58,481 bases of DNA from a virus: positions 1-58,481 of IMG/VR virus record IMGVR_UViG_3300025132_000042. One strand, 5' to 3'. Position numbers and translations under genes: made by a program. The notes under the pieces are model-generated. The model saw only the letters and a program-made list of their open reading frames with translations, was not told the DNA's origin and searched no databases. Below are positions 8,659 through 28,850 of this stretch, piece after piece. How positions within the stretch are numbered: position 1 is the first letter of the stretch; each line of letters begins with the position of its first letter.

Positions 8659-8860
8659 TCTGGCCTCCAATAGGGTAAACGTCCCTTCTTTTAAGTTTCC
8701 ACTCGTGGCCATTGGCATAAACTTGATAAATATGTTGGCTCATTTTATTCAAGTAAACGCCAACAGTTGGCCTTTCAGTCATCCGCAATCTCATTCCTTT
8801 TTCTGTCTCGCACCACAATTCAACTCCCTGCGGAATGTGTACTAAATCACCTTGCTGCAT
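8645..8860 (-). CDS. Hypothetical SH3-like small phage protein, 71 aa
   Basis: The ATG at 8860 overlaps the groEL stop as TGATG, implying translational coupling. The sequence is strand-rich: GDLVHIPQGVELW, then RPTVGVYL, then QHIYQVYANGHEWKLKRRDVYPI. The last part resembles the Y-x-V-x-x-x-G-x-x-W-x-V-x-x-x-DV ending of small SH3-like phage proteins. A GTG one codon upstream is also in frame, but the ATG fits the overlap better. No function is known. Its place right behind groEL might suggest a chaperonin partner, but it does not resemble GroES; a GroES-like gene lies at 26.4 kb. Confidence 0.6.
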   Translation of the reverse strand: MQQGDLVHIPQGVELWCETEKGMRLRMTERPTVGVYLNKMSQHIYQVYANGHEWKLKRRDVYPIGGQSAAS

Positions 8861-10449
8861 CACTTGATCTCCGTCTGTATGATGCCGAAATTAGTTGTTA
8901 TTAGTGTGCCAGCACAGCTCGCGGCGTTTTGTAGTGCTGAAATTGTAACCTTAACTGGATCAATGATACCAGCCTCATAGCAATCTACTAACACGCCGTC
9001 TCTAAAGTTCCATACAAATTCTGATTCCTCTTTCAAAACCGAATCGATTATCAAATCCGGTGATTCGCCGGCATTAAGGGCCATTTGCTTAATTGGCTCT
9101 TGGCATGCTTTTTTGACTATCACTGCTCCCACTATCTGATCTTGGTGATCTTCGCCGTGGACCGTGCTTATGGTCATCGTACGCGATGCTCTCAGGAGTG
9201 CACAGCCGCCGCCGGGTATGATACCCTGTTCTTGTGCCGAGCGTACAGCTTCTAGAGCATCTTCAATTCGGTGTTTCTTCTCGGTTACTTCGACTGCGGT
9301 TGCGCCGCCAACTCGAATCACCGCAACACCACTTGCGAGTCTGGCGATCCTCTCTTGAATTGCGGTAGCTGCGGTCAAGTCTTCTGTCGTTTTTACTTGT
9401 TCCTTTAGCGACTCAATGCGTTCCTCGATTGCCTCATAATTACAGGCTCCCCCGATAATGGTTGTGGAATATTTTGTGCTTTCAATACTCTTAGCAGAAC
9501 CCAAATCAGCTAGCCCGACTTGTTGTAGTTTTCTACCGCTTGTTCTAGTTACAAAATTAGCTCCTGTGGATGCTGCCAAGTCTTCCAGTATGCTACGACG
9601 CTCTTCGCCGTACATTGGAGCTTTTATTGCGGCCACTTTTAAGGTTCCCCTCATTGCGTTCATAATTATGGCTGCCAACGCCTGCCCCTCGATGTCTTCA
9701 CAAACTAATATTAGTGCGCGGGATTCTCTAGCAGCTAACTCAAGCACGGGCAGTATCTGATCGACCATGGTAATCTTGTGGTCAGTTACCAAAAACAATG
9801 GTTCATCGTATTGCATAGTAGCTCGGCGCTCGTCTGTCACAAAGGCGCTAGCGCAATAGCCAGCTTTGATTCGGAAACCTTCCATTATATCTAAATTTGT
9901 TTCAAGGGATCTAGACTCTTCGATAGTAATTGCGCCGTCTTGACCCACCTTATCTACAGCAGTAGAGATTAGGCGGCCGATACTCTTATCGTTGTTGGCA
10001 GAGATCGAAGCTACATCGGTTACTTCTTCGACAGTCTGAACTGGCTTAGCCATATCATTTAAATTTATGACTACCTCCTTGACTGCGAGGTGTACGCCTC
10101 TTTGAATCTCGATAGGAGATATACCAGAAGCAATATATTTTTGCGATTCTCTTAAAATAGCCCTAGCCAAAACAGTAGATGTTGTTGTGCCATCACCCGC
10201 ATTGTTGTTAGTTTCAATGGCCGCTTGTCTTATAATCTCGGCGCCCGCATTTTCAAACTCATCTTGTAGGGCAACAAAGTGGGCCACCGTGACACCATCT
10301 TTTGTTATGAACGGGGCGCCATCTTTCTCTTTTAGGAGGACGTTGCGGCCGCGAGGGCCAAGTGTTGAGCCAACGTTATCTGCAATCGCGTTGGCGCCGG
10401 TCATTATCCTTTTTTGAAGGCTTTGTTCATTATCATATTCTCTGCTCAT
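8860..10449 (-). CDS. groEL: Phage-encoded GroEL-type chaperonin
   Basis: The protein has 529 aa and is colinear with group I chaperonins. It shows LGPRGRNV (residues 30-37), ITKDGVTVA (~48-56), the nucleotide-binding GDGTTTSTVLA (85-95), a diverged apical domain (~190-375), VRVGGATAVEVTEKKHRIEDAL (~378-400) and GIIPGGG near residue 413. It is slightly shorter than the ~548 aa of E. coli GroEL and lacks the Gly-Gly-Met tail. It presumably folds capsid or other virion proteins, as chaperonins of other large phages are believed to do. A perfect sigma-70 promoter lies 25 nt upstream, and GAGG precedes the ATG. Confidence 0.97.
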   Translation of the reverse strand: MSREYDNEQSLQKRIMTGANAIADNVGSTLGPRGRNVLLKEKDGAPFITKDGVTVAHFVALQDEFENAGAEIIRQAAIETNNNAGDGTTTSTVLARAILRESQKYIASGISPIEIQRGVHLAVKEVVINLNDMAKPVQTVEEVTDVASISANNDKSIGRLISTAVDKVGQDGAITIEESRSLETNLDIMEGFRIKAGYCASAFVTDERRATMQYDEPLFLVTDHKITMVDQILPVLELAARESRALILVCEDIEGQALAAIIMNAMRGTLKVAAIKAPMYGEERRSILEDLAASTGANFVTRTSGRKLQQVGLADLGSAKSIESTKYSTTIIGGACNYEAIEERIESLKEQVKTTEDLTAATAIQERIARLASGVAVIRVGGATAVEVTEKKHRIEDALEAVRSAQEQGIIPGGGCALLRASRTMTISTVHGEDHQDQIVGAVIVKKACQEPIKQMALNAGESPDLIIDSVLKEESEFVWNFRDGVLVDCYEAGIIDPVKVTISALQNAASCAGTLITTNFGIIQTEIK

Positions 10450-12402: not shown

Positions 12403-13062
12403 TCAAATAATTATATCAGCTATACCTAATTCTACAGCTTCTTCTGCTGATAAATAGACGTTAACTTTGCGTTCAAGCATATTTTTCAAAGTTGTTTTCG
12501 TCATTTTTGTTTCAGAAACCAAACAGTCGGTGTACATTTGCTGCAATTGTTCGATGGCACCCATTTCATTTACCAGATTGTGAAGTGAGCCGTGGTTGCC
12601 TCCGATAACTGAATGGATCATAACCCGGCAATTTTTACCTATCTTCCGCTTGCCTTTGGTACCGGCCGCCAACACTAACACTCCGGCAGACATGACCTTG
12701 CCAACTCCGTATGTGTGTATTTCAGTTGATTCGCGCACCTGTCTCATAATGTCATAAAGCGCAAACATGTCATCCGCGGAGCCACCGTAGGTGGATATGT
12801 AGAAATCAATCGGGTCTCGTTCCTTCTCTTCCTTCTCGGCATTGCTTAAATCTAAAAACAACAAAGATTGTACTAATTCAGCTACTTTCTCTTCATCCAC
12901 ATCCGAAAATAGCCCTATCGCCCTTAATTCAGCTGGGCCATCGTGGCCGCCTTCAGAGCCGATGGTGGCTGGATCTAGAATAACAATTTTTTGAGTTTTG
13001 CCGGCCGAAGTATCTTCGGCTTCAATCATAGAGCCAATGGCATCTTTTATTTTTTTTATCAT
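12403..13062 (-). CDS. ClpP-like serine protease (copy 1)
   Basis: The start is the ATG at 13062 (ATGA overlap with the upstream stop, AAGGGG ahead); the longer open frame before it is upstream coding sequence. The 219-aa product has FYISTYGGSADDMFALYDIM (oxyanion-side strand and helix), the nucleophile Ser125 in GKVMSAGVLVLAAG and His150 in CRVMIHSVIGG. The usual acidic member in ERDTERD is not obvious: the equivalent region reads LERKVNVYLSAEEA. ClpP family proteins degrade or process proteins, and in phages they are also found as prohead proteases. A second, clearly different paralogue lies at 18.6-19.2 kb. Whether this one matures the capsid or works with a host ATPase is open. Confidence 0.88.
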   Translation of the reverse strand: MIKKIKDAIGSMIEAEDTSAGKTQKIVILDPATIGSEGGHDGPAELRAIGLFSDVDEEKVAELVQSLLFLDLSNAEKEEKERDPIDFYISTYGGSADDMFALYDIMRQVRESTEIHTYGVGKVMSAGVLVLAAGTKGKRKIGKNCRVMIHSVIGGNHGSLHNLVNEMGAIEQLQQMYTDCLVSETKMTKTTLKNMLERKVNVYLSAEEAVELGIADIII

Positions 13063-13466
13063 TTGGTTCCCCTTGGTTGTAAAAATGTGTATGCAAAGTT
13101 TTTGTTTTCTTGCAAATATTTCATGGCACTTTCCCAATTATCAAATTTGCAAAAATTTCGGAACAGATCATTATAACAAAGCAGCAAAGTAGCTACCGCC
13201 GCTTCCTTATAAATTGTTATTTCGGTTTCAGAAGTTAGCTTGTACTTTTCAATCTTGCTATCGCTGAACCCAGCTTCCATTAGCTTCTTTAATTTGTGAT
13301 TAGCAGTAAATTCATAATTTTCAACTGAGCGGGCTAGCATAAGCAATGATATAAGCTCTGCGCATTTAATTACGCTCAAGCTAAGCCTAGCGGAACGCAG
13401 GAAGTAGAACGTCTGGCAAGTCACATAACCAAAAATAAAAACTAATAAATATAAAATCCAATTCAT
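13059..13466 (-). CDS. Hypothetical inner-membrane protein, 135 aa
   Basis: One N-terminal transmembrane helix (residues ~4-24) is followed by a mostly helical cytoplasmic or periplasmic domain. A long helical stretch (VIKCAELISLLMLARSVENYEF) and a second helix with NFCKFDNWESAMKYL are visible. It overlaps the ClpP-like gene by 4 nt (ATGA), so the two are likely translated together. It is the first gene after the sigma-70 promoter at 13517-13545. A membrane anchor or adaptor for the protease is conceivable but not supported by any motif. Confidence 0.65.
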   Translation of the reverse strand: MNWILYLLVFIFGYVTCQTFYFLRSARLSLSVIKCAELISLLMLARSVENYEFTANHKLKKLMEAGFSDSKIEKYKLTSETEITIYKEAAVATLLLCYNDLFRNFCKFDNWESAMKYLQENKNFAYTFLQPRGTK

Positions 13467-14923: not shown

Positions 14924-15955
14924 CTACCACTTTCTATTCAAAATATGAGTATGGCTCTCGCTCAAGCCCGAAGTGGTTTGTGTTACAAATTCTGATTTAT
15001 TTTGTAGCTCAGATATTGTGCGCGCGCCAGAATATGAAAGACCAGATGAAATGCCTCTCTTTAGATCCCGCAAAATTGCCCCTACGGAACCGCGGTACGG
15101 GATTGTGGTTGACACACCCTCGTCCGAAGAATATTTGCCCCTCCACTCAACTTGCGCCTCTTTGCTGGCCATACCTCTATAAATCTTCCATCGGTGGCCA
15201 TCTTTGTCTTGCATAATTTTTCCGGGTGATTCATCGGTACCCGCGAACAAAGAACCACACATGATCGCATCTGCCCCTGCTGCTATTGCCTTAACAATAT
15301 CTCCAGAGTTTCTAATTCCGCCGTCTGCGATTATTTTGACGTTTCGATCGGTTTTGGCGCAATCAATTATAGTTTGTAGCCCGGGCATACCATGGCCAGT
15401 TTGAATCCTAGTAGAACAAATGGAGCCACCACCAATGTTGCACCTTACAGAGTTGGCTCCCCAGTCTGCTAGATCGTTAATCCCTTGCAAGGTGGCGACA
15501 TTGCCGGCCATTATATGGATACCGTCCCCAAACTTCGTGCGTAACTGCTGGAGAGCCTCTTTCATGAGAATATGGTGTCCATGAGCCACGTCGACGCACA
15601 AGAAATCAACTTCAAGAGCCAGCATAACTGCGGCTCTATTTAGATAATCTCCCGTTATACCAATAGCTGCGCCCAATTTAATATTTGGATCCGCTGTTCT
15701 TGCAGTCGTTACAATATCCGCTTGCTGTTGGATCGTATTGTACCTATGGACTACTGCGGCGCCGCCATTATTAGATAATGCTATGGCCATGTTTGCTTCC
15801 GACACCGTATCCATTGGGGATGATAATACCGGCAGGTCTAGGACCACATCGCCACCTAAATCAATAGACATATCAATTTCCGTTCTTGAGCGTATGTCAG
15901 AATATTGAGGGACCAACAACACATCGTCATACGACAAAGCTTTATTCGTTTTCAT
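14924..15955 (-). CDS. IMP dehydrogenase/GMP reductase family enzyme without CBS domains
   Basis: The start is the ATG at 15955 (GAGGAA 4 nt ahead); the open frame before it is upstream coding sequence. The 343-aa TIM barrel has [18 protein letters not shown], the catalytic Cys180 in [46 protein letters not shown], the flap [10 protein letters not shown], and a C-terminus ([18 protein letters not shown]-x-GA) closer to IMPDH than to GMP reductase. The length matches GMP reductase and CBS-less IMPDH. It interconverts IMP and XMP, or GMP and IMP, with NAD(P). Absence of CBS domains would remove ATP/GTP allosteric control. Substrate direction cannot be fixed from the sequence alone. Confidence 0.88.
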
Positions 15956-16813: not shown

Positions 16814-17084
16814 TTTTTTGCTCCTTTATATTGTTTTTTTCTATAAAATCGTCAACCACTTCGTTTGCTTTTTTTACACACTCGGGACAGAATAAACGTA
16901 CCACCTCCTGCTTGACCATTACATTCCAGCTCTTAACCATCTCTTTGTTTGTTTTATCGAATGGCTCTTGGCAGGAGGAACACACTTCTGGCAATTTATG
17001 GAAGAGACTTAGTTGTTCTTGCATATTTTTATTTGCGTTTGCTCCGATCTTCTTTTGCAGAAGGCGACGTTGTTGCCTGTTCAT
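16788..17084 (-). CDS. Small zinc-ribbon hypothetical protein, 98 aa
   Basis: A basic N-terminal helix (MNRQQRRLLQKKIG) precedes two cysteine pairs: C-SS-CQEPFD (~35-38) and C-PE-C (~66-69), arranged like a zinc ribbon. The tail is charged and helical. Similar 'MNR-x-x-RR' plus Cys-pair proteins are recurrent small genes in T4-like marine phages, function unknown. It overlaps both neighbours (ATGA with the methyltransferase gene, 26 nt with the thioredoxin gene), showing a tight operon. A nucleic-acid-binding or protein-adaptor role is possible. Confidence 0.65.
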   Translation of the reverse strand: MNRQQRRLLQKKIGANANKNMQEQLSLFHKLPEVCSSCQEPFDKTNKEMVKSWNVMVKQEVVRLFCPECVKKANEVVDDFIEKNNIKEQKNDREPTGG

Positions 17085-17554
17085 CTGTTCATAGCTCCAA
17101 ATATTTGCTGACGATTGGTGCCGTCGAACACAACGACCGCTGATGGGAACGGGGCGCTATTTTCGCTATCACCAAACTTAAGGCGCCCTTTGACAAAATA
17201 TACCTCGTCGGCCTTCATGACATAGTTATGCCAGTATTTGGTGTCAGTACGCGCGGGGATCAACATAACAGCTTTTGTTCCTTCCTTTAGTGACTCTTCG
17301 TATGCTTTTTTGATCCACTTTTCAATGCCGCGGCCATAGGGAGGATTGATAAAACTTGTGAACCCCTCCCAACTCTTAGAGAGCCCATCTTCTGCCTCAG
17401 TAAAAAAATTTGCACACTTCGTATTCACACAGTCTGCACACGGATCCAGATCAAACGGACCGAATCTCCAATCAAGTTTGTCAAAAAACTCTTTTGGTGT
17501 GGCCCACTCACCTGTTTTTGACGAAAACATCACCATTTTTGTTTCATTATTCAT
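17081..17554 (-). CDS. Phage-type DNA N6-adenine methyltransferase
   Basis: The protein has 157 aa. It starts with EWATPKEFFDKLDWRFGPFDLDPCAD, the W-x-TP-x-x-(F/L)-(F/D) and DPCA pattern typical of the phage DNA N-6-adenine-methyltransferase family, then the catalytic FINPPYGRGIEKW (NPPY at ~70-73), and RTDTKYWH and FVKGRLKFG strands near the end. It transfers a methyl group from SAM to adenine N6, which can protect phage DNA from restriction. It overlaps its neighbours by 8 nt and 4 nt. All family blocks are present, so it should be active. Confidence 0.92.
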   Translation of the reverse strand: MNNETKMVMFSSKTGEWATPKEFFDKLDWRFGPFDLDPCADCVNTKCANFFTEAEDGLSKSWEGFTSFINPPYGRGIEKWIKKAYEESLKEGTKAVMLIPARTDTKYWHNYVMKADEVYFVKGRLKFGDSENSAPFPSAVVVFDGTNRQQIFGAMNR

Positions 17555-17871: not shown

Positions 17872-18558
17872 TTAAATTCCAAAAAGTCTATTTAAAAATC
17901 TTCTAATTAGTTCATCCTTTTGCCAGTCGGGACATTCAGAAAAAATATAGTTATATGTACTCTTTTGAGATGCTATTAGGGCCTGCACCCTTGCTGACTC
18001 TCTTCTGAACCATTTTGATTGACGGCTATAATTGTCGGGAGGATATATTTCATATTTTTCTGCTACTTCTATGAGTACAAAATACTTCCTTTCATCATAC
18101 GCCTTTTTAGTCGACTTAAAAGTGTCTATCATTTCTTTAGCAAGGAACGGGCTTATATCTAGTGCGCTGACCTTATCGGGATGTAAGGCGATGGCTATTT
18201 TCTTAAAAAGTTTACTAAAAATTTCATGAATTTCTTTATCTTCTTCCGTGGGAGATGGCTCGGAGTCTTTTTTCGGGCTGTCAACGCATATCAAGCTACC
18301 CGGTGTGATCTCAGCCTCTCCCTCTCCATCTTCGATGGTTGGTACTTCAGCTTCTCCAAAAAGATTTGCCATTCTTTCGCTATTTTGTCTTTCAAGTTCG
18401 CCTATGTCCAAGCCGGTCCTTCCACAATATTCACGATAATACATCTCAAAATCACGACTAGCGTCCTTACAAGTTTGGGTTATAAGCTCTAATTCATTAT
18501 AAAGATACTTTAACTCATTTATGGAGCGGCGCCATTTAAGCTTTTTTGAGATGGACAT
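17872..18558 (-). CDS. J-domain (DnaJ-like) protein
   Basis: The protein has 228 aa. Residues ~108-172 hold a J-domain-like unit: a helix LFKKIAIALHPDK with the diagnostic HPD at 126-128, then a helix AKEMIDTFKSTKKAYDERKYFVLIEVAEKY. J proteins stimulate Hsp70 (DnaK) ATPase through HPD, so it likely recruits the host DnaK. The N-terminal ~95 residues are helical and then acidic; the C-terminal ~55 are helical and basic. It lacks the Gly/Phe and zinc regions of full DnaJ. It is the gene immediately after the ClpP-like copy 2. Confidence 0.78.
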   Translation of the reverse strand: MSISKKLKWRRSINELKYLYNELELITQTCKDASRDFEMYYREYCGRTGLDIGELERQNSERMANLFGEAEVPTIEDGEGEAEITPGSLICVDSPKKDSEPSPTEEDKEIHEIFSKLFKKIAIALHPDKVSALDISPFLAKEMIDTFKSTKKAYDERKYFVLIEVAEKYEIYPPDNYSRQSKWFRRESARVQALIASQKSTYNYIFSECPDWQKDELIRRFLNRLFGI

Positions 18559-18569
18559 AATATTGCTCT

Positions 18570-19175
18570 TTATTCAAAATCAAAGCTAACCTTAGCCTCA
18601 ATTTTTAATTCCGGAATTTTTAAATGGTTGGCTAAATTGTGCTTCTTGCATTCGTCAACCTCCAGAAACCAATCAGCATGTCCTTTTTCGTGAACTATGT
18701 CCAAGAAGTAATCTTTGTGGTGGCCACAATTTTCAGCCATCATGTTATATATCTTTTGATTAAGGCGCTCGGTCTCTTCTGCCGACGCTTTTATTTCTTC
18801 CACTTTTCCGCGTTCCATAGAACTTACATCGTGGATCATCACTGTCGCATCGGGGTCCATATATCTCATTCCTTCTGCTCCAAAACTAAACAAAATGGCG
18901 CCGCACGACATCGCCTTTCCTTGAACGATCGTGGCCACTGGAATTCGACTGTGCCTGATATCAGAGATCATAGACATTAGGCTATAAACTTGGCCGCCAT
19001 AACTATCGATTATAATAGGCAGCACGGGCTGGCCGGTGTTTTGTGCCTTGCTGACTAAAGACGAGAATTGTTTCGCTGCGTCCTCATCAAATTTCCGGAC
19101 TCTAATTGTCACCGGCAAGTTATCAATTAGTTTAGGTTCTTTCAATAGCGGGCTAAAATTTGTAATCACATTCAT
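18570..19175 (-). CDS. ClpP-like serine protease (copy 2)
   Basis: The protein has 201 aa. IIIDSYGGQVYSLMSMISDIRHS matches the ClpP glycine-rich strand and helix, the nucleophile Ser90 lies in GKAMSCGAILFSFGAEGMR, and His115 in TVMIHDVSSMERGK. It differs strongly from the copy at 12.4-13.1 kb, so the two are not a recent duplication. The N-terminus is short and there is no transit or signal sequence. The region HADWFLEVDECKKHNL takes the place of the RDRFLSAEEA segment. It may form its own oligomer, work with host ClpX/ClpA, or be a prohead protease. The ATG follows the QueF-like gene's stop directly. Confidence 0.87.
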   Translation of the reverse strand: MNVITNFSPLLKEPKLIDNLPVTIRVRKFDEDAAKQFSSLVSKAQNTGQPVLPIIIDSYGGQVYSLMSMISDIRHSRIPVATIVQGKAMSCGAILFSFGAEGMRYMDPDATVMIHDVSSMERGKVEEIKASAEETERLNQKIYNMMAENCGHHKDYFLDIVHEKGHADWFLEVDECKKHNLANHLKIPELKIEAKVSFDFE

Positions 19176-19589
19176 CTACCAGTCCTCCTTTTGACCAATC
19201 CAGTCTTTATAGTTTTCTTCTCCGCCGCGAGCCTTCCAGTCAGAGTCAATGGTAAGTTTGGAACTAATGCCGCCGCGGGCATTGCATATCATCACTAATC
19301 TCAATCTTTCTGGCTCGTATACTTTCATCATATCCTCAAAGACTACATTAATTAATCTTTCGTATGAATAAATACTACTTCGAAACTGATAAAAGTACTC
19401 CTTCATTGATTTTAGCTCAATAACTTTATCTTTTGGATAAAATGTGATGTACAGCAATGCGAAATCCGGCTGGCCGCGTACGCCCTCAAAGGTTATCTCT
19501 GGTGCCTTTAGCTTTATCTCATAAGCCTCCGAAGACGGATTTGGTATAGATTTTAATATACTGCTATCTGACCATATTTTTCTTTTCAT
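19176..19589 (-). CDS. QueF-like T-fold protein lacking the catalytic cysteine
   Basis: The protein has 137 aa. The QueF family core is clear: GQPDFALLYITFYPKDKVIELKSMKEYFYQFRSS, then YERLINVVFEDMMKVYEPERL and ARGGISSK, matching QPDF-x-x-I-x-YIP-x-x-x-x-(V/I)E-x-KS-x-K-x-Y-x-x-SFR and RGGI. QueF reduces preQ0 to preQ1 via a cysteine in TSLCP just before the GQPDF block; here that segment reads EITFEGVRGQPDF and has no Cys. A nitrile-reductase function is therefore unlikely. QueF-related phage proteins have been linked to 7-deazaguanine DNA modification. It sits between the DnaE polymerase and ClpP-like genes. Confidence 0.8.
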   Translation of the reverse strand: MKRKIWSDSSILKSIPNPSSEAYEIKLKAPEITFEGVRGQPDFALLYITFYPKDKVIELKSMKEYFYQFRSSIYSYERLINVVFEDMMKVYEPERLRLVMICNARGGISSKLTIDSDWKARGGEENYKDWIGQKEDW

Positions 19590-19592
19590 TCT

Positions 19593-22500
19593 TTATCCCA
19601 GTAATCTAAACGTTTTGCCAATGGCATATGTTGAAAATCCCCAGTTTTTATCATAGTTTAGTTTAGCCATGTATGGGCGATTAACGTGAATCCTGTCCTT
19701 TTCCGGCTTTACACCCCAGCACCTAATTCTAGTTGACTGGTTGTTTGAGTCGATCACTTCCACAATCCAGTAAAGTTTTCCATTCTTTGTTTTCCGCTCT
19801 GTTATTTTTCTAGGAATGAACCAACAGACTAACAACTCTTCATCAAACTCAGAAATGGGCGGGATGTATTTATCTTGTAGCTTTTGAACCGTTTCAGCCG
19901 ATATCACAAGATTAATCGGAAAAACCCCAGTAAGGTCTGTTTTAAACTGTATCACTTCTTCCTCGGAAAAATCACCCTCTGGGCGGTACAGTTCAACATT
20001 TTCTTTAAACTTTTTCTGGTTCTTGGGCCTATCCACTACACAGGCAGACCAAAAATGCTTTCGGCCCGTGAAGCGATCATCAACAATGCTGTCTAAAGCT
20101 CCGCCGCGACAAAGGGCGTCTAAAGACTTCTTGTTGAGCTTGCTGTATACAATCCCTTCGTTGAATAGAAGTGACTCGATATCAGTGAATGGGCGATGTT
20201 TCAGGACCTGCTCAATCGCCGCCATTCCGAGGCCCTTAATAGATGTCAAAGGTTGAATTAAAGTCTTACCATCATCACTAATCTCCCAGACAGTGCCTGA
20301 TTTATTGATATCCAGCGGGGCAATGTCGAACCCATAGTGTTTAGCAATATTGATAGCTTTTTCTTTCCGGCTTTCTGGCTCTTTATCCAAAAATGCAGCC
20401 ATCCATTCGGCTGGGTAATAATTAAACAGCCAAGCACATTGATATGAGATTATAGAATAGCTAACAGCATGAGATTTATTGAACCCATAGCCGGAGAAAT
20501 ATTCGAATTTATCCCATAGATTTTGTGCCTCATCTTTACCAATACCTTTGCTTGCGCAGCCTATGATAAACTTATCGTGCAGCTTGCTTTTAACGGAGCC
20601 CTTGCCTGTGCCCTTCTTAGTCAAGACCTTGCGTAGCATGTTGCCTTCATCGAGAGTTAGGTTACCAAGCTTGTGGGCTAGCAGCGCGATTTGTTCCTGA
20701 AAAATTAGAAACCCAAATGTTTCCTGAGTGATATCATGAGCATCATCATTCAGATAGCTGATGTAGTGCGGATTTTCTTTTGCTTCTACATAATCTGCAT
20801 CCACACCAGCCGACAGTGGGCCCGGCCGAAAGATAGAGGTAATAGCTGACACATCAATAATATTGTTAGGCTTCGCTCTTACACAAAATTGTTGGGCGCC
20901 TTGTTCCGTGAATTGAAAGATGCCAGCCCACTTCCCGGTATGAAAAATGTTTTCATATATTTTTGGATCGTTCATATCCAGTCGATCTGGGTGTAGCTTT
21001 TCTTCGTAATAATCTCTTATTTGTGAAAAGGTGGGATTTTCAACCCCATGGTGGCGCTTTAAGATATGATAAATTGCACCTTCCATCATTTTCAAAGTAG
21101 ACAAGCCAAGTAAGTCGAACTTAATAAACCCCATGGGCTCAAGATGTCGGACGTTTTGGCCCTCAGCCCAAGGTGCCTGTCGTACGCCACCCGAGTTGAT
21201 CAAAGGCATACTGGTATCAAGATTCTCTGCAATAACAACGCCGCCGGCATGACGGGAGCAAGAGCGAACTTGCCCAACAAGACCCTCAACGTGTGTTTTT
21301 ACCTCTGGGTATTTGTTGAGATACGCGCGCAGCGTAGGCGAATATTCCATCACCTCTTCCCATGTTGGAACATAGACGCCGGCTTTGATTCCATGCTTTT
21401 GCTTCGCCTCCGGTGTGGCCTCTCTAATCATAATAGATGTGACCGTATTGACTTCAGTAAATGGGATATTGTATAGTTTTGAAATGTCCTTGATTAAACT
21501 TTTCAGTTGCAACGTGTTCCAGTTAGATATTGGTGCCACGCAATCTTCGCCCCACATTTCGACTAACTTTTCTTTTAGTGACATGCTATCGGAAACATCG
21601 TAATCAATATCAGGATAATCTGTGGCATCAGATCTTAAAAACCGAGAGAACAGCAAGTCATACTTGATCGGGTCAACTTGCGTAATGTTTAGTGCGTAAG
21701 CCACCAACGAACCAGCGGCCGAACCGCGGCCCGGGCCTGTGAGCATCATATCAGTTGCAACATCTACGATAGATTTCATGGTAAGGAAGTATTTGGAAAA
21801 TCCCCGATCATCGATTACATTCAACTCAAGTCGCAAGCGGTCTGTGTATTCCTTGTTGGTGTGGAGGCCCTTATCTTTCAGACCTTCAAGTGCAAAATTT
21901 ACCAACGCTTGTGTGGCCGTAAAGCCGGCGGGTACCACAAATTCGGGGAGGCGGACTGTATTGTCGGGCAGGAATGACTCGATACGCTCGAAAGCGATCC
22001 GGTGAGACTCCTCAATACTTTTCAAGACTACCTCGTCATCATACTCAAACCCCGTGGATTGCGAGTACTCCTTGTAGCTTTCCCAGATCTGGTCACCATT
22101 TTTTGGATACAACTCGTACCCGATCTCTTCGACCCCTTCCGGCAGTTGAGATTCTTCCTCGGCCCACGAGGGACGTCCCTTGCCAAGCCAACCAAGACGT
22201 TTATAAAGCTCTCTGTCTTTCCAAGCGTCGGGATTGGGGTAATGGCTATCGGCTGTAGTGACCAGTCTAACGCCAAACTCTTGAGCAACCTGAATCACAT
22301 ATTGATTAAGTTCATGCTGCTCGCTAATGTTATTCCATTGTACTTCGGCATACCAGCGATCACCGAAAATATCGACCATGCGTTGTGTGGATTCGCGCAT
22401 TGCACCCAGTACTGCATCATCGCCGGCTTCTCGGTTCTCCCAATAGTTTCCGGCATACACGCCGCCAAGACAAGCGGAAGAAGCAATAATACCCTCGTTG

Positions 22501-23024
22501 TATTTCTTAAGAAGTGCATAGTCAATACGTGGGTATCGATAAAAATTCTCTGGCTGGTAGGACTCTGATACCAGTTTAAATAGGTTGTTCAGGCCTGTTT
22601 GGTTTTGTGCCAGCAAAACAAGGTGTCTGCGGCGGCGTAAAATATCTTGAGTTTTCTTAGAGGCACCTTCGTCCTCAACGGTTGCACCGGATGCTGCCGC
22701 GGCCTTTGCAGAACGGGCGCGCTTCTTATCCTCCATAGCAGCAGTGTATTCTTCTTTCCATTCACTTATAGATGGTATAAAATATGCCTCGCAACCAAAA
22801 ATAGGTTTAAAGTTGCGGCCGCTCTCCTTCATCTTTTTGGCATGTAAAACCTGATATGCTAGTCCGTTCATGTTCCCATGATCGGTTAGTGCCAAAGCAT
22901 CGCACCCATTTTCATAGGCAAAATCCATATGTGCCTGTGGGTACCCAATTGCGTCGAAAATAGAGCCGGCTACACTATGGGCATGCAGTCCAACAAACTT
23001 AATCTTAGAATCCTTTCGGTTCAT
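19593..23024 (-). CDS. dnaE: C-family replicative DNA polymerase (DnaE-like)
   Basis: The protein has 1143 aa. The PHP domain starts with GLHAHSVAG (His14, His16) and ALTDHGNMNG, with later TADSHY. The polymerase palm has TGPGRGSAAGSLVAY (429-443) and the metal-binding YPDIDYDVSD (470-479; Asp472, 474, 476), then the thumb/fingers with GVVIAENLD, FRPGPLSAG, and GYGFNKSHAVSYS. A helix-hairpin-helix region (IKGLGMAAIEQVL) and an OB-like C-terminus follow. It synthesises DNA during phage replication. A low-complexity insert (~98-125, Ala/Lys-rich) is phage-specific. AAGGAGG precedes the ATG. No clamp or clamp loader is seen in this window. Confidence 0.95.
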   Translation of the reverse strand: MNRKDSKIKFVGLHAHSVAGSIFDAIGYPQAHMDFAYENGCDALALTDHGNMNGLAYQVLHAKKMKESGRNFKPIFGCEAYFIPSISEWKEEYTAAMEDKKRARSAKAAAASGATVEDEGASKKTQDILRRRRHLVLLAQNQTGLNNLFKLVSESYQPENFYRYPRIDYALLKKYNEGIIASSACLGGVYAGNYWENREAGDDAVLGAMRESTQRMVDIFGDRWYAEVQWNNISEQHELNQYVIQVAQEFGVRLVTTADSHYPNPDAWKDRELYKRLGWLGKGRPSWAEEESQLPEGVEEIGYELYPKNGDQIWESYKEYSQSTGFEYDDEVVLKSIEESHRIAFERIESFLPDNTVRLPEFVVPAGFTATQALVNFALEGLKDKGLHTNKEYTDRLRLELNVIDDRGFSKYFLTMKSIVDVATDMMLTGPGRGSAAGSLVAYALNITQVDPIKYDLLFSRFLRSDATDYPDIDYDVSDSMSLKEKLVEMWGEDCVAPISNWNTLQLKSLIKDISKLYNIPFTEVNTVTSIMIREATPEAKQKHGIKAGVYVPTWEEVMEYSPTLRAYLNKYPEVKTHVEGLVGQVRSCSRHAGGVVIAENLDTSMPLINSGGVRQAPWAEGQNVRHLEPMGFIKFDLLGLSTLKMMEGAIYHILKRHHGVENPTFSQIRDYYEEKLHPDRLDMNDPKIYENIFHTGKWAGIFQFTEQGAQQFCVRAKPNNIIDVSAITSIFRPGPLSAGVDADYVEAKENPHYISYLNDDAHDITQETFGFLIFQEQIALLAHKLGNLTLDEGNMLRKVLTKKGTGKGSVKSKLHDKFIIGCASKGIGKDEAQNLWDKFEYFSGYGFNKSHAVSYSIISYQCAWLFNYYPAEWMAAFLDKEPESRKEKAINIAKHYGFDIAPLDINKSGTVWEISDDGKTLIQPLTSIKGLGMAAIEQVLKHRPFTDIESLLFNEGIVYSKLNKKSLDALCRGGALDSIVDDRFTGRKHFWSACVVDRPKNQKKFKENVELYRPEGDFSEEEVIQFKTDLTGVFPINLVISAETVQKLQDKYIPPISEFDEELLVCWFIPRKITERKTKNGKLYWIVEVIDSNNQSTRIRCWGVKPEKDRIHVNRPYMAKLNYDKNWGFSTYAIGKTFRLLG

Positions 23025-23900
23025 CTAATCCTCCTTATATGGTATCATAACATGTCTATGGGTGGCCGTCAAGGCCTTTGGCGGTGTTTCTATGGAATTA
23101 GGCGATCCAAGAAAATCGCAATATCCGCTCCAAGTAGAAATATCGCAATACCAATCGACACATACATTAAGAGCCTCTTCATCGTGAATCTCACCAAATA
23201 TGTCTTTTAATTCGAAATGGCGGGCTGACCATCGTTGTTCTATTCCCAGCCTTTCTGAAGGGTATTTTTCGTGTGCTGGGGGGGACAAAAATTCCTTTGT
23301 GGTCTTTTTGTTTATTTGTCTTCGACATCTTTTAAAATCTTCTCCTGTCATTGTAAATGGCAGAGGCACACTGTCTTTAACATTTTTACCATCGTGGGAT
23401 AGGAATAAATTGTTTATTCTAGACGAAATTGCTTGCCTATGTTCCCTCAATACATATATATCATAAGTTGACATGGGGAATGATATGAAATATTTTTCTG
23501 GGACCAGCCAGTGTGAAATATTGTATGCCACACGCCAAGCAGAATGTATACCATGTAAAATTGACCACCCATAAGAATCGCGGCGATCGCGGTCTTTGGG
23601 GTGAATCGGAACGTAATAAATAGGTATCTCTTTCCTTTCCTGCGATTTAAATTTAGACATTCTATTGTAGTACACTGGGTCATACACCCAATCACCCACA
23701 ACCTCTCTAATTATCGGAGCCACATCATCATTAGCAACAATCCAAATAGTGTTGCACCCAGCTAAGGCACATTCAAAAACTGATTTTTGAATCGCAGTAA
23801 AGCTGCTACCTATCGGCAACAAAACCTCCGGGGTCTTTAGCTCAAATTCAGTCTTAAGATTGGCTAGCGGTATTATGCCGGCTAAGTGTATGTTCTTCAT
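23025..23900 (-). CDS. Nucleotidyltransferase-like protein (sugar-NTP transferase fold)
   Basis: The protein has 291 aa. The N-terminal ~65 residues follow the Rossmann-like start of sugar-phosphate nucleotidyltransferases: LAGIIPLAN, then TPEVLLPIGSSFTAIQKSVFECALAGCNTIWIVAND, resembling 'PK-x-L-x-PI-x-x-x-P-(8)-A-x-x-AG-x-x-x-I-x-I'. The canonical GxGTRL-x-P loop is not preserved. The body has a DVAPIIREVVGDWVYDP segment seen in other phage homologues of unknown substrate. Together with the phosphomannomutase-like gene at 5.9-6.7 kb it hints at nucleotide-sugar synthesis. It overlaps the upstream gene by 47 nt. Confidence 0.6.
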   Translation of the reverse strand: MKNIHLAGIIPLANLKTEFELKTPEVLLPIGSSFTAIQKSVFECALAGCNTIWIVANDDVAPIIREVVGDWVYDPVYYNRMSKFKSQERKEIPIYYVPIHPKDRDRRDSYGWSILHGIHSAWRVAYNISHWLVPEKYFISFPMSTYDIYVLREHRQAISSRINNLFLSHDGKNVKDSVPLPFTMTGEDFKRCRRQINKKTTKEFLSPPAHEKYPSERLGIEQRWSARHFELKDIFGEIHDEEALNVCVDWYCDISTWSGYCDFLGSPNSIETPPKALTATHRHVMIPYKED

Positions 23901-24774
23901 AATTGCTTAAAAATCTATCGTAGGCCAAACAAGACGATGATAAATCTTGTAGCAAAGATTGTTCACTCTTTTCGCCAATCTCAATCTTGTCGGAGTTCGA
24001 CACACATTCATACTTTGGTTCACAGATTTCTCGTCTAATGTTTGAAGTTTTATGTTTGTAATATTTCGGTCTTCCTGTCTTGGAGTATCCATTAAAAGTT
24101 CCTTTCATTCCTCTTGATTCCATTTCGTGAACCAGTTTAAATCTTGCCATTGTTTCTGAAAAATTAAAGTCAGTGGCTGCAGCAGATTCGACAACAGATT
24201 TAACGCACGCATCTTTTACTTTAGTGTTGCCATCGATCCTATCTGATGGGTAAAACCACACCTCAGACACAAACTTGTCTCCCGTACTCAAATAGTCAAT
24301 TTCGTGCATACCACCTTTGTGAAACGCTACCCAATCATAACACACATGGTGGTCATTTGCAAGGCTTTTTATTATATCTAGATTGGCGATGTCACCATCA
24401 AAGTATATACATTTTTCAAAATTAACCTCTGCTATTTTTGAGTATTGGTTGGAGCACGTAATTTTTTCTCCGTCATATCTCATAGAGGTACACAAATTTG
24501 ACAAAGGAACATTGCCATCTAACGACAGTAAAAAAAGCAGCCTTTCCCATAACAACTCTTTAGGGTGTCCTACCATTTTTGCATCACCAAACGTCGTTAA
24601 ACTTTGCGGTGCCGGTGGCAGCTGCAGATACGATAAATCCACATCTGGCCCAAAGTGCTCAAACATAAAGGGTCTCTTGGTTTCTGAGAAAAATATCGGA
24701 TACTGATTTTTGAATGCGTACATAACCGCGACCAAAGAGCTTCCCAAAACAATATTTTTGTATTCAAAATTCAA
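23854..24774 (-). CDS. Hypothetical protein, 306 aa, dinucleotide-fold-like start
   Basis: Residues 5-30 (YKNIVLGSSLVAVMYAFKNQYPIFFSE) read like a Rossmann beta-alpha-beta start, but with G-S-S in place of GxGxxG. The remainder has no recognised motif; a basic GYSKTGRPKYYKHK stretch lies near residue 235. The start is a TTG at 24774. Its sigma-70 promoter places the transcript start only ~9 nt upstream, so the leader is very short and no clear Shine-Dalgarno fits in it. It overlaps the nucleotidyltransferase-like gene, suggesting a joint role. I do not recognise the family. Confidence 0.55.
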   Translation of the reverse strand: MNFEYKNIVLGSSLVAVMYAFKNQYPIFFSETKRPFMFEHFGPDVDLSYLQLPPAPQSLTTFGDAKMVGHPKELLWERLLFLLSLDGNVPLSNLCTSMRYDGEKITCSNQYSKIAEVNFEKCIYFDGDIANLDIIKSLANDHHVCYDWVAFHKGGMHEIDYLSTGDKFVSEVWFYPSDRIDGNTKVKDACVKSVVESAAATDFNFSETMARFKLVHEMESRGMKGTFNGYSKTGRPKYYKHKTSNIRREICEPKYECVSNSDKIEIGEKSEQSLLQDLSSSCLAYDRFLSNYEEHTLSRHNTASQS

Positions 24775-26882: not shown

Positions 26883-28850
26883 TTAAATAGTACAAGTATC
26901 GTTGGTGCAAAATTTAGATCCGGCGCCGCCTTCTTGGGTCGCGAATTTTACAACTGGGGTAATCTTTGACGCCATAGTTTTATATTGCTTTTTGGTTATC
27001 GGCTCGTATGGCGCTTGAACATACCCAGTCTCTTCATACTTCAGAAAAGACACTGCTTTAAGCCTCGTCTCATAAAGTTCTAAGGCCGACTTTATCTGAT
27101 CCGCTTCATCTGGCTTAAACGTTACCGTAATCGATACAGAATTGTCCGCCCAATAATGTTGGTATTGGGCGGCGATTTCAAGCTGCTCCCACATCGAAAC
27201 ATCTTTCTTTCCTTTTGTAAAATATGGTTCGTGGACCGGAAACTCTACTACTGTTGTGTTTGGCGTATACTCATCCGGCTCCATTCTATATCCGGCAGAC
27301 TTCAAAGGTTCCAGTAAGCTGGATGTGTTGGAAAATCTGATTCTGCGGATATAATATTCGTCTTCTGGGAAGTGAATACCGGGAGTTGATCCGTTCAATA
27401 AAGACACTGTTCCAGACGGCTTTATCGATGTCATCCTGATAGATTTGGGTATGCACAGCCAATTGGAATACTCTTCATCTAATTGTTTTACATAATCGTA
27501 GGCCCCATCACACATGCTATAGACTTCTCGGCGGCCAAACTTGTTGAATGCTTGTACAACGCCTGACTGCGAGAGTCCAATCCTGCGGTTTTTGAGCATC
27601 TTTGCATTTGTTTCAGGCCAATGAGTGTTGGAGAGGGTTATAGTTTTCCCATATAAATACGCTATCTTAAGCGTCTTCAGATAATCTTCTAGGTTTTCAT
27701 GCTTTGCAGGATAAGTTTCAACCAAACAACACAGTTCAGCGTCTTCTAGTTGTTGCTCAACGCAAGGGTTAAAGCCAGCAACGTTGACATCATCATACCG
27801 CAAGCCATCTTTAAACCTGCCCCGAGTTCTTGCGTTATCAAGCCATATGTATCCGGGTTCACCGTTTTTTTGGCTCTGTTTTGCATGCCATGTGTAATCC
27901 ATGCCCACTTCGGCATTAAAAGAGTTATTTGAGCCCCACCGATGATGGTACAACTTTTCTTGATCATTTTTCATCTCAAGATAACGAGTGTCATCGTGAC
28001 GGCCCATGGCTAAGGCTGCAGAACGCCTAACATTTCCTGATACCACACACCTGCCGATCAGGTTTTCAGTATCCACAATGTCGACTGATGTGATTGATTC
28101 TCCAATTTTTGAGGAGTACAGCTCAGTCAGGTTTTTGTGTAGTTCGATTAGGGGGCCCGGGCCGGAAGACGTGCCTCCGAAGCCCTTGATTAGGGCGCCT
28201 TCTTTTCGAATCGCGGAATAATCAAATTTAGGAACTTTGTCACCAAAAAAGAAGCCGTCCAAAAGAGCATGAACGGAATCAACCCAACCTTCCCGAGAAT
28301 CATCGATAACTAATGTGTCGTTGGTCCATTGTGGCTCTTGGATTGTCACAGTGGCGGCGCCCTCGGTATCGAATCCGACCCCGACGCCGACCATTAGTGC
28401 ATCCATCATCCAAGCAAATAGGTAGCCTCCCTTAGAGGCCAAGTCACGAGTAGAGCGGAAAGCGCAGTTAAATAAGCCAGCAGCTGTGCGTTCTTCGACA
28501 AACTTGGTGCCCATCATCCAAAGGCCGCGGCCGGGTGGCGTCCATTTTAATTCAAAAAGTCTATCAAAGGCATCCTTTGCTGTTTTCTGTGCCTTGTTGT
28601 CGTTCCATTCCAAGCCAAGCTGAAACACGTGTTGTTTTTGCATATTAAACATGCCCTCGATAACTCGACGACAAGTTTGCCACCATTCTTCAGAGCCATC
28701 AGCATCCGGCTCAAACTCACTTAAACGTCTAGAATATGTCCTCTTATAGGTCACATATCCCAAGGGGCCCCACGGCACTTTCTTGGTTTTGTATGGCTCA
28801 ATGAAAGTATCACTTAGCCGAAATCTGCGGATGTTTTGAATTGTTCTCAT
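26883..28850 (-). CDS. nrdJ: Adenosylcobalamin-dependent ribonucleoside-triphosphate reductase (class II)
   Basis: The protein has 655 aa, single-chain RTPR type. Motifs include GLFNCAFRST, NLIGRCVVSGNVRRSA, FNPCVEQQLEDAELCCLVETYP (the active-site cysteine region and radical site), IKPSGTVSLLNGSTPGIHFPE, and a C-terminal redox pair in FCTNDTCTI. It reduces NTPs to dNTPs with coenzyme B12 and thioredoxin-type reductants; the phage thioredoxin-fold protein at 16.4 kb is a candidate donor. Activity depends on host B12. It sits directly after the helicase gene, fitting the replication block. AAGGAA precedes the ATG. Confidence 0.92.
   Translation of the reverse strand: MRTIQNIRRFRLSDTFIEPYKTKKVPWGPLGYVTYKRTYSRRLSEFEPDADGSEEWWQTCRRVIEGMFNMQKQHVFQLGLEWNDNKAQKTAKDAFDRLFELKWTPPGRGLWMMGTKFVEERTAAGLFNCAFRSTRDLASKGGYLFAWMMDALMVGVGVGFDTEGAATVTIQEPQWTNDTLVIDDSREGWVDSVHALLDGFFFGDKVPKFDYSAIRKEGALIKGFGGTSSGPGPLIELHKNLTELYSSKIGESITSVDIVDTENLIGRCVVSGNVRRSAALAMGRHDDTRYLEMKNDQEKLYHHRWGSNNSFNAEVGMDYTWHAKQSQKNGEPGYIWLDNARTRGRFKDGLRYDDVNVAGFNPCVEQQLEDAELCCLVETYPAKHENLEDYLKTLKIAYLYGKTITLSNTHWPETNAKMLKNRRIGLSQSGVVQAFNKFGRREVYSMCDGAYDYVKQLDEEYSNWLCIPKSIRMTSIKPSGTVSLLNGSTPGIHFPEDEYYIRRIRFSNTSSLLEPLKSAGYRMEPDEYTPNTTVVEFPVHEPYFTKGKKDVSMWEQLEIAAQYQHYWADNSVSITVTFKPDEADQIKSALELYETRLKAVSFLKYEETGYVQAPYEPITKKQYKTMASKITPVVKFATQEGGAGSKFCTNDTCTI

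Follow-up and report, generated by a model that had tools for sequence, protein, structure and literature searches.

The window, i.e. the whole stretch of DNA analysed here, is a complete IMG/VR record of 58,481 bases, so that the rest of the phage has to be judged from its relatives. At positions 19176-19589 on the minus strand it carries an intact 137-codon gene with an ATG start. The open reading frame, its Pfam match, the alignment and a structure model describe the 137 aa product as a QueF-family protein without the catalytic cysteine, for which we propose the function of a T-fold methylenetetrahydrofolate reductase. Immediately upstream on the same strand, with 3 bases between, lies the gene for DNA polymerase III alpha, DnaE (19593-23024; Pfam DNA_pol3_alpha), as the initial annotation of this DNA had stated. 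The same gene order recurs elsewhere in the window clade. A ClpP-like protease gene (18570-19175, minus strand; Pfam CLP_protease) follows downstream without a gap. Also on the minus strand are a Dam-type DNA N6-adenine methyltransferase (17081-17554; Pfam Dam, 107.7 bits), a SAM consumer located 1.6 kb from the QueF-type gene, and a B12-dependent (class II) ribonucleotide reductase (26883-28850; Pfam RNR_Alpha and RNR-II insertion domain).

The Pfam matches of the protein are QueF models only, with PF14489 at an E value of 3.1e-18 and 66.2 bits (cut-off 27.3). The solved structures closest by sequence are those of B. subtilis QueF (4fgc, 4f8b and 5udg, E ~1e-14). Where canonical QueF reads PEFTSLCPKTGQPDF, the window protein reads PEITFEGVRGQPDF. 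In the alignment, Gly36 takes the column of the catalytic Cys, and the loop is shortened by one residue. The Asp of PDF (Asp42) and the Glu of SYER (Glu77; FHE in B. subtilis QueF) are retained. The initial annotation had described a QueF-family protein with all conserved blocks present except the Cys that attacks the nitrile. The family assignment is borne out by PF14489, by the structure matches and by the modelled fold, and the loss of the Cys by Gly36 and the shortened loop. The Cys is, however, not the sole change, since the C-terminal block is also altered compared to QueF (RGGISSKLTIDSDW...GG). The QueF motif is E(S/L)K(S/A)hK(L/Y)(Y/F/W), and ELKSMKEY of the window protein fits it at every position but the seventh (Glu).

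The NCBIfam equivalog model for preQ1 synthase, TIGR03139, gives the window protein 86.1 bits, just below the cut-off of 86.9. This cut-off is passed by two of five family members tested (95.3 and 93.7 bits), so that databases will label part of the Cys-less family as QueF. Purifying selection on the gene is strong: in comparison with six relatives, pN is 0.05-0.12 and pS 0.72-0.93, with silent sites near saturation and few replacements.

A family without the catalytic cysteine

In the following, Q denotes the Cys-less QueF gene, and Q+ and Q- denote genomes with and without it. A first scan of viral contigs yielded 12 close relatives with 71-91% identity and a profile scan yielded 47 loci. 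From a third viral scan 80 of 172 relatives were kept, 39 of them new. In bacterial and archaeal genomes, 206 relatives were found, the best 80 of which were studied. These 80 are 59-73% identical to the window protein and come from Bacteroidota, Deltaproteobacteria, Gammaproteobacteria, Nitrospirota, Zixibacteria and others. The catalytic position is occupied by a Cys in 0 of 48 and 0 of 120 family proteins in two alignments (167 proteins together, the window protein being in both) and in 20 of 20 canonical QueF proteins from Bacteroidota genomes. With none of 167 proteins carrying it, the absence of the Cys is neither a mutation of a single isolate nor a sequencing slip. It is also not produced by the search, as the third viral scan used C-terminal patterns only.

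Among the residues invariant in 22 diverse members are Glu31, Gly36, Asp42, Glu58, Lys60 and Lys63, as well as Ser75-Tyr76-Glu77-Arg78, the RGGI block and Asp115-Ser116-Asp117-Trp118. In a FastTree phylogeny, 34 Cys-less proteins form a clade apart from 20 Bacteroidota QueF proteins (support 0.709, long stem). An exchange of His to Tyr beside the kept Glu was considered as a second signature of the family and dropped, because canonical Bacteroidota QueF proteins vary at this position too. Of 247 Bacteroidota genomes drawn across the phylum, the Cys-less type was found in the centre genome only, that of Crocinitomix algicola (G055), with 224 bits compared to at most 85.4 bits in the others. The Cys-less QueF is the sole QueF match in this genome, where no ordinary QueF was found. 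In a record of 332 kb (G005), the frame of Q at locus L013 breaks near the RGG block at about 10310-10345 and the tblastn similarity runs on; this is possibly a sequencing slip.

The structure model was built from 22 family sequences and has a mean pLDDT of 82. Its best match is 4fgc (Z 16.0, rmsd 3.5, 125 aligned residues), and 4f8b is matched with Z 16.0, rmsd 4.3 and 135 aligned residues; 4f8b and 5jyx are thioimide structures. Lower matches are archaeosine synthase QueF-L, GTP cyclohydrolase I (FolE) and dihydroneopterin aldolase. As modelled, the window protein has a QueF-type T-fold.

Neighbouring genes and the distribution of MetF

Among the 80 bacterial loci (best 80 of 206), MetH is located within 5 kb of Q in 18, MetE in 1, MetY in 16, homoserine dehydrogenase in 17 and ThyX in 10, the last always within 300 bases. 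At least one of MetH, MetE, MetK, AhcY, MetY, ThyX and homoserine dehydrogenase is found within this distance in 47/80. The arrangements differ between lineages. In Crocinitomix and others, MetH is split, and Q separates its homocysteine-methyltransferase part from the remainder. Pleionea and other Gammaproteobacteria have Q in divergent orientation to a full MetH. Chitinophagaceae show the gene order MetY-Q-homoserine dehydrogenase and Deltaproteobacteria the order ThyX-Q.

Methionine and SAM genes also accompany Q in phages. Within 5 kb of Q, the 86 viral loci, many of which are short or redundant, contain MetK in 15, AhcY in 8, MetE in 2 and MetH in 1 case, and at least one of these genes is present in 18 of the 86. 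The record G019 of 273 kb contains an operon MetK-Q-MetH-AhcY with a full-length MetH (L057, 8962-15250) and thereby a nearly complete activated-methyl cycle within a single phage operon. The operon Q-MetK-AhcY is found in L063 and its relatives L065, L067, L068 and L252. The order Apt-MetK-Q-Pfs occurs in L282 (265-2703) and its relatives, and Pfs-MetK-Q-MetE with an intact MetE in L287 (6503-11674); Apt, MetK and a Pfs-type nucleosidase were noted around Q in both L282 and L287. L277 has Apt and Pfs only beside Q. In total, Pfs-like genes cluster in 8 loci and Apt-like genes in 7. Pfam confirms the domains of representative operons, among them those for pterin binding and activation in the phage MetH. 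Apart from their requirement for 5-methyl-THF, MetH and MetE have little in common, so their occurrence as neighbours points to a supply of 5-methyl-THF. MetF gave no tblastn match in any of 11 nearly whole viral records. In L074 and L077, Q is located near ribonucleotide reductase.

In some phage loci, Q is associated with a ferredoxin-like gene (Fer4_13). This gene lies between Q and AhcY in L059 (10348-10677) and L069 (10380-10613) and after Q in L056, L058, L061 and L076.

MetF was tested in 79 of the best 80 (of 206) Q+ genomes. Left out was L170, from a Methylococcaceae MAG, which carries MetK-Q-MetH-AhcY and looks like a phage contig. As Q- controls for both MetF and MetH, we used the same 41 genomes with a completeness of at least 95% out of the 246 other genomes from the Bacteroidota draw. 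MetF (PF02219) is absent in 34 of the 79 Q+ genomes (11/40 and 23/39; from the best 80 of 206) and in 1 of the 41 Q- Bacteroidota. The Fisher p value of 5e-7 for this comparison is too small, as is the one given below, since Q+ genomes of any completeness were compared, the controls are Bacteroidota only and relatives are non-independent. Of the 34 MetF-less Q+ genomes, 26 contain the MetH activation domain, and L215 and L240 have the MetH core next to Q. In the controls, MetH is found in 37/41, all 37 with MetF, and the sole MetF-less control has no MetH. Within the Q+ set, 14/18 genomes lack MetF where Q lies beside MetH or MetE, compared to 20/61 otherwise (p 0.001). Crocinitomix algicola and Pleionea sediminis, both of them named isolates, belong to the MetF-less, MetH-positive genomes, which argues that the loss of MetF is not just due to incomplete MAGs.

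Proposed reaction and competing explanations

Members of the tunnelling fold bind purines or pterins via a conserved Glu. QueF performs two hydride steps on a nitrile: its Cys, essential for nitrile reduction, forms a thioimide for the first step, and the second step reduces the imine. Because the Cys serves the nitrile-to-thioimide step only, its loss fits a switch from a nitrile to an iminium substrate. A protein that has retained the ring-anchoring Glu, the acidic Asp and the greater part of the QueF motif and has lost only the nucleophile is what would be expected of a pterin enzyme restricted to the imine step. The changed reaction suggested in the initial annotation thus gains support, by inference, from a QueF fold that is devoid of its nucleophile. 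MetF, Mfr and Mer reduce methylene-tetrahydropterins via an acid-formed 5-iminium cation followed by transfer of one hydride, and the mycobacterial Mfr is a flavin-free MTHFR that takes its hydride directly from NADH (both as described in an excerpt of PMC11094777).

A role of some kind in folate or methionine metabolism is very likely for the Cys-less QueF. Regarding substrate, cofactor and reaction, we infer that it is probably a flavin-free, NADPH-dependent 5,10-methylenetetrahydrofolate (CH2-THF) reductase. In the proposed mechanism, Glu77 would anchor the 2-amino-4-oxo-pyrimidine ring of the pterin in the way QueF holds preQ0 by its Glu. Asp42 or another acid would protonate the folate so that the 5-iminium form opens, and NADPH would then hand one hydride to the carbon of CH2=N5+. 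This hydride step would correspond to the chemistry of the second QueF step, imine to amine, which requires no thiol. The shorter Gly loop may provide the space required by N10 and by the p-aminobenzoyl-glutamate tail. The product, 5-methyl-THF, would serve methionine synthase (MetH or MetE) and thereby the methionine/SAM cycle.

In many bacteria, the Cys-less QueF would take the place of the unrelated MetF. In phages, it would act as an auxiliary metabolic gene that sustains the methyl flow to SAM, for instance for DNA methylation. For the window phage, we propose that it may feed the methionine synthase of the host, with the Dam-type methyltransferase as one SAM consumer. Taken more broadly, the favoured picture is that Cys-less QueF paralogues represent an MTHFR on a fold from which this reaction is not known, substitute for MetF in several bacterial lineages and complete the methionine/SAM cycles that large phages encode with MetK, MetH or MetE, and AhcY or Pfs, and that some proteins labelled as preQ1 synthases are makers of 5-methyl-THF.

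Several findings stand against the assignment as an MTHFR. MetF is also present in 45 of the 79 Q+ genomes (from the best 80 of 206), among them every Chitinophagaceae isolate tested with the order MetY-Q-homoserine dehydrogenase, and in Marinoscillum (L178) it lies 2.7 kb from Q. The Deltaproteobacteria with ThyX as neighbour keep MetF, and DHFR is missing in 6/6 of those tested. Finally, Q follows dnaE in the window clade, where MetH, MetE, MetK and AhcY were not found by tblastn; the 196-kb relative G002 gave no match to MetH, MetE, MetK, AhcY, ThyX, ThyA or DHFR.

The main rival substrate is dihydrofolate. The reduction of another folate or pterin, above all of dihydrofolate as a DHFR substitute, or of several folate substrates, is in our view unlikely, but it has points in its favour. 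Dihydrofolate has an imine in its N5=C6 bond, which would be open to QueF-type chemistry. The position of ThyX within 300 bases of Q in 10/80 bacterial loci (best 80 of 206) fits a DHFR substitute, and so may the absence of DHFR in all six ThyX-linked Q+ genomes tested. Such a reaction would also be compatible with dnaE and ribonucleotide reductase as neighbours. However, 32 of the 40 Q+ genomes tested possess DHFR, including 9 of the 11 that are MetF-less, the phage record G045 combines a FolA-like match with ThyA and Q, and the strongest neighbours of Q are the methionine synthases.

With its sole covalent catalyst lost, the protein could also have become a T-fold ring devoid of catalysis, with a folate or purine as ligand and a role as regulator or chaperone of methionine synthase or of the SAM cycle. 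The tight linkage to MetH, including the position between the split MetH parts, agrees with such a role. We regard it as rather improbable, as Q is linked to MetE, MetK, Pfs and ThyX as well, the loss of MetF tracks Q and thus calls for catalysis, and Asp, Glu and the greater part of the QueF motif are invariant in the 22 diverse members.

The initial annotation had pointed to phage DNA modification with 7-deazaguanine, i.e. to an enzyme similar to DpdL that alters the 7-substituent. DpdL was proposed as a CDG decarboxylase and may be a relative of QueF that lacks the Cys. The QueF fold, the kept guanine-anchoring Glu and the lost nitrile-attacking Cys of the window protein would be compatible with a reaction such as CDG decarboxylation. 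The gene content, however, makes this explanation very improbable. None of 48 records (the window and 47 others) gave a match to TGT/DpdA (PF01702). QueC (PF06508) above the cut-off was found in 0/47, FolE (PF01227) in 0/12 and QueD-type PTPS in 0/13 records. When the window and 11 related viral records with sizes of 75 to 338 kb were searched by tblastn, the DpdA, FolE, QueD, Gat-QueC and QueE proteins of phage 9g had no match; ten of these 11 records are complete and one (G022) is complete bar the last 346 bases. Records in the domain searches may be fragments, and a divergent DpdA could escape both the PF01702 search and tblastn. The earlier statement that the window contains no pathway gene agrees with this, as neither PF01702 nor any of the five 9g proteins has a match there. 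FolE, QueD, QueE, QueC and DpdA, proposed for a search of the rest of the genome, were found in none of the related records searched either, the genetic half of the outcome that the initial annotation itself had named as speaking against its proposal. Known phage deazaguanine systems carry several pathway genes together (excerpt of PMC6884629). In contrast, the neighbours of Q are methionine, SAM and folate genes, and in bacteria the Cys-less family commonly occurs next to methionine genes, so that the proposed link to deazaguanine modification was not upheld. Two weak QueC matches (G022 and G033) were taken to be TilS-like PP-loop proteins, as judged by eye from their motifs.

It is scarcely credible that the protein is a thiol-free nitrile reductase (preQ1 synthase) in organisms without ordinary QueF: Crocinitomix algicola (G055), with a Cys-less protein and no other QueF match, and the NCBIfam assignment of 2/5 members tested to preQ1 synthase would agree with it, but the Cys is essential in QueF nitrile reduction, searches of the phage records found no queuosine genes and the neighbours are methionine genes.

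Known enzymes and further genes of the window

QueF-II of the B. subtilis type (TIGR03139) shares with the Cys-less family the fold, the length, ELKS.K, the Asp of PDF, the Glu of FHE/SYER and the RGGI block. The Cys-less family differs from it by the exchange of Cys to Gly, the loop shorter by one residue, SYER and the C-terminal DSDW..GG, and it forms a separate clade. It is found in a methionine/SAM context, and in phages no queuosine genes were detected with it. With MetF (PF02219), the Cys-less QueF would share the predicted reaction and the slot in the pathway. The window protein is not a member of the MetF family according to Pfam and the modelled T-fold, and MetF, a beta-alpha barrel with FAD (excerpt of PMC11094777), is unrelated to it in fold and sequence. 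With Mfr, the predicted common feature is that NAD(P)H would pass its hydride directly to the 5-iminium, without a flavin. Mfr is also a beta-alpha barrel and, in the same excerpt of PMC11094777, is reported from mycobacteria only, in contrast to a T-fold protein in phages, Bacteroidota, Proteobacteria and others.

A QueF homologue in a phage is also known from 7-deazaguanine DNA modification, which involves phage QueF and archaeal QueF-L (excerpt of PMC6884629). According to this excerpt, the phage QueF is accompanied by DpdA, FolE, QueD, QueE and QueC, none of which was found in the records searched for the Cys-less family. The lack of detected deazaguanine genes would also distinguish the Cys-less QueF from DpdL. 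In the open-licence literature, we found neither a link between QueF and methylenetetrahydrofolate reductase nor a description of a QueF paralog without the catalytic cysteine; an earlier publication elsewhere is possible.

If the assignment as CH2-THF reductase is correct, it provides a named candidate for the one-carbon gap in bacteria that have a methionine synthase dependent on methyl-folate and no MetF. A nitrile reductase would have been turned into a folate reductase by the loss of one residue, which is conceivable because the second half-reaction of QueF already reduces an imine. Annotation pipelines would then misassign the function of a widespread family, at least in part, and some phages would hold close to a full activated-methyl cycle.

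Further genes of the window were noted. An IMP dehydrogenase/GMP reductase-type enzyme of 343 aa (14927-15955, minus strand), in which only the catalytic domain was found, is kept in the window clade. A similar gene adjoins a TilS-like gene, recognized by eye, in the phage record G022 (L086). Pfam identifies two ClpP-like proteases in the window, at 12403-13137 and at 18570-19175 (both on the minus strand). The product of 17872-18558 (minus strand) has no Pfam family and contains an HPDK stretch that recalls a J-domain. At 8860-10449 (minus strand), a GroEL-like chaperonin was recognized by eye. Upstream of dnaE, at 23025-24774 (minus strand), are two overlapping genes for conserved phage proteins of 291 and 306 aa without a Pfam match, and this pair is found in 9 loci including the window.
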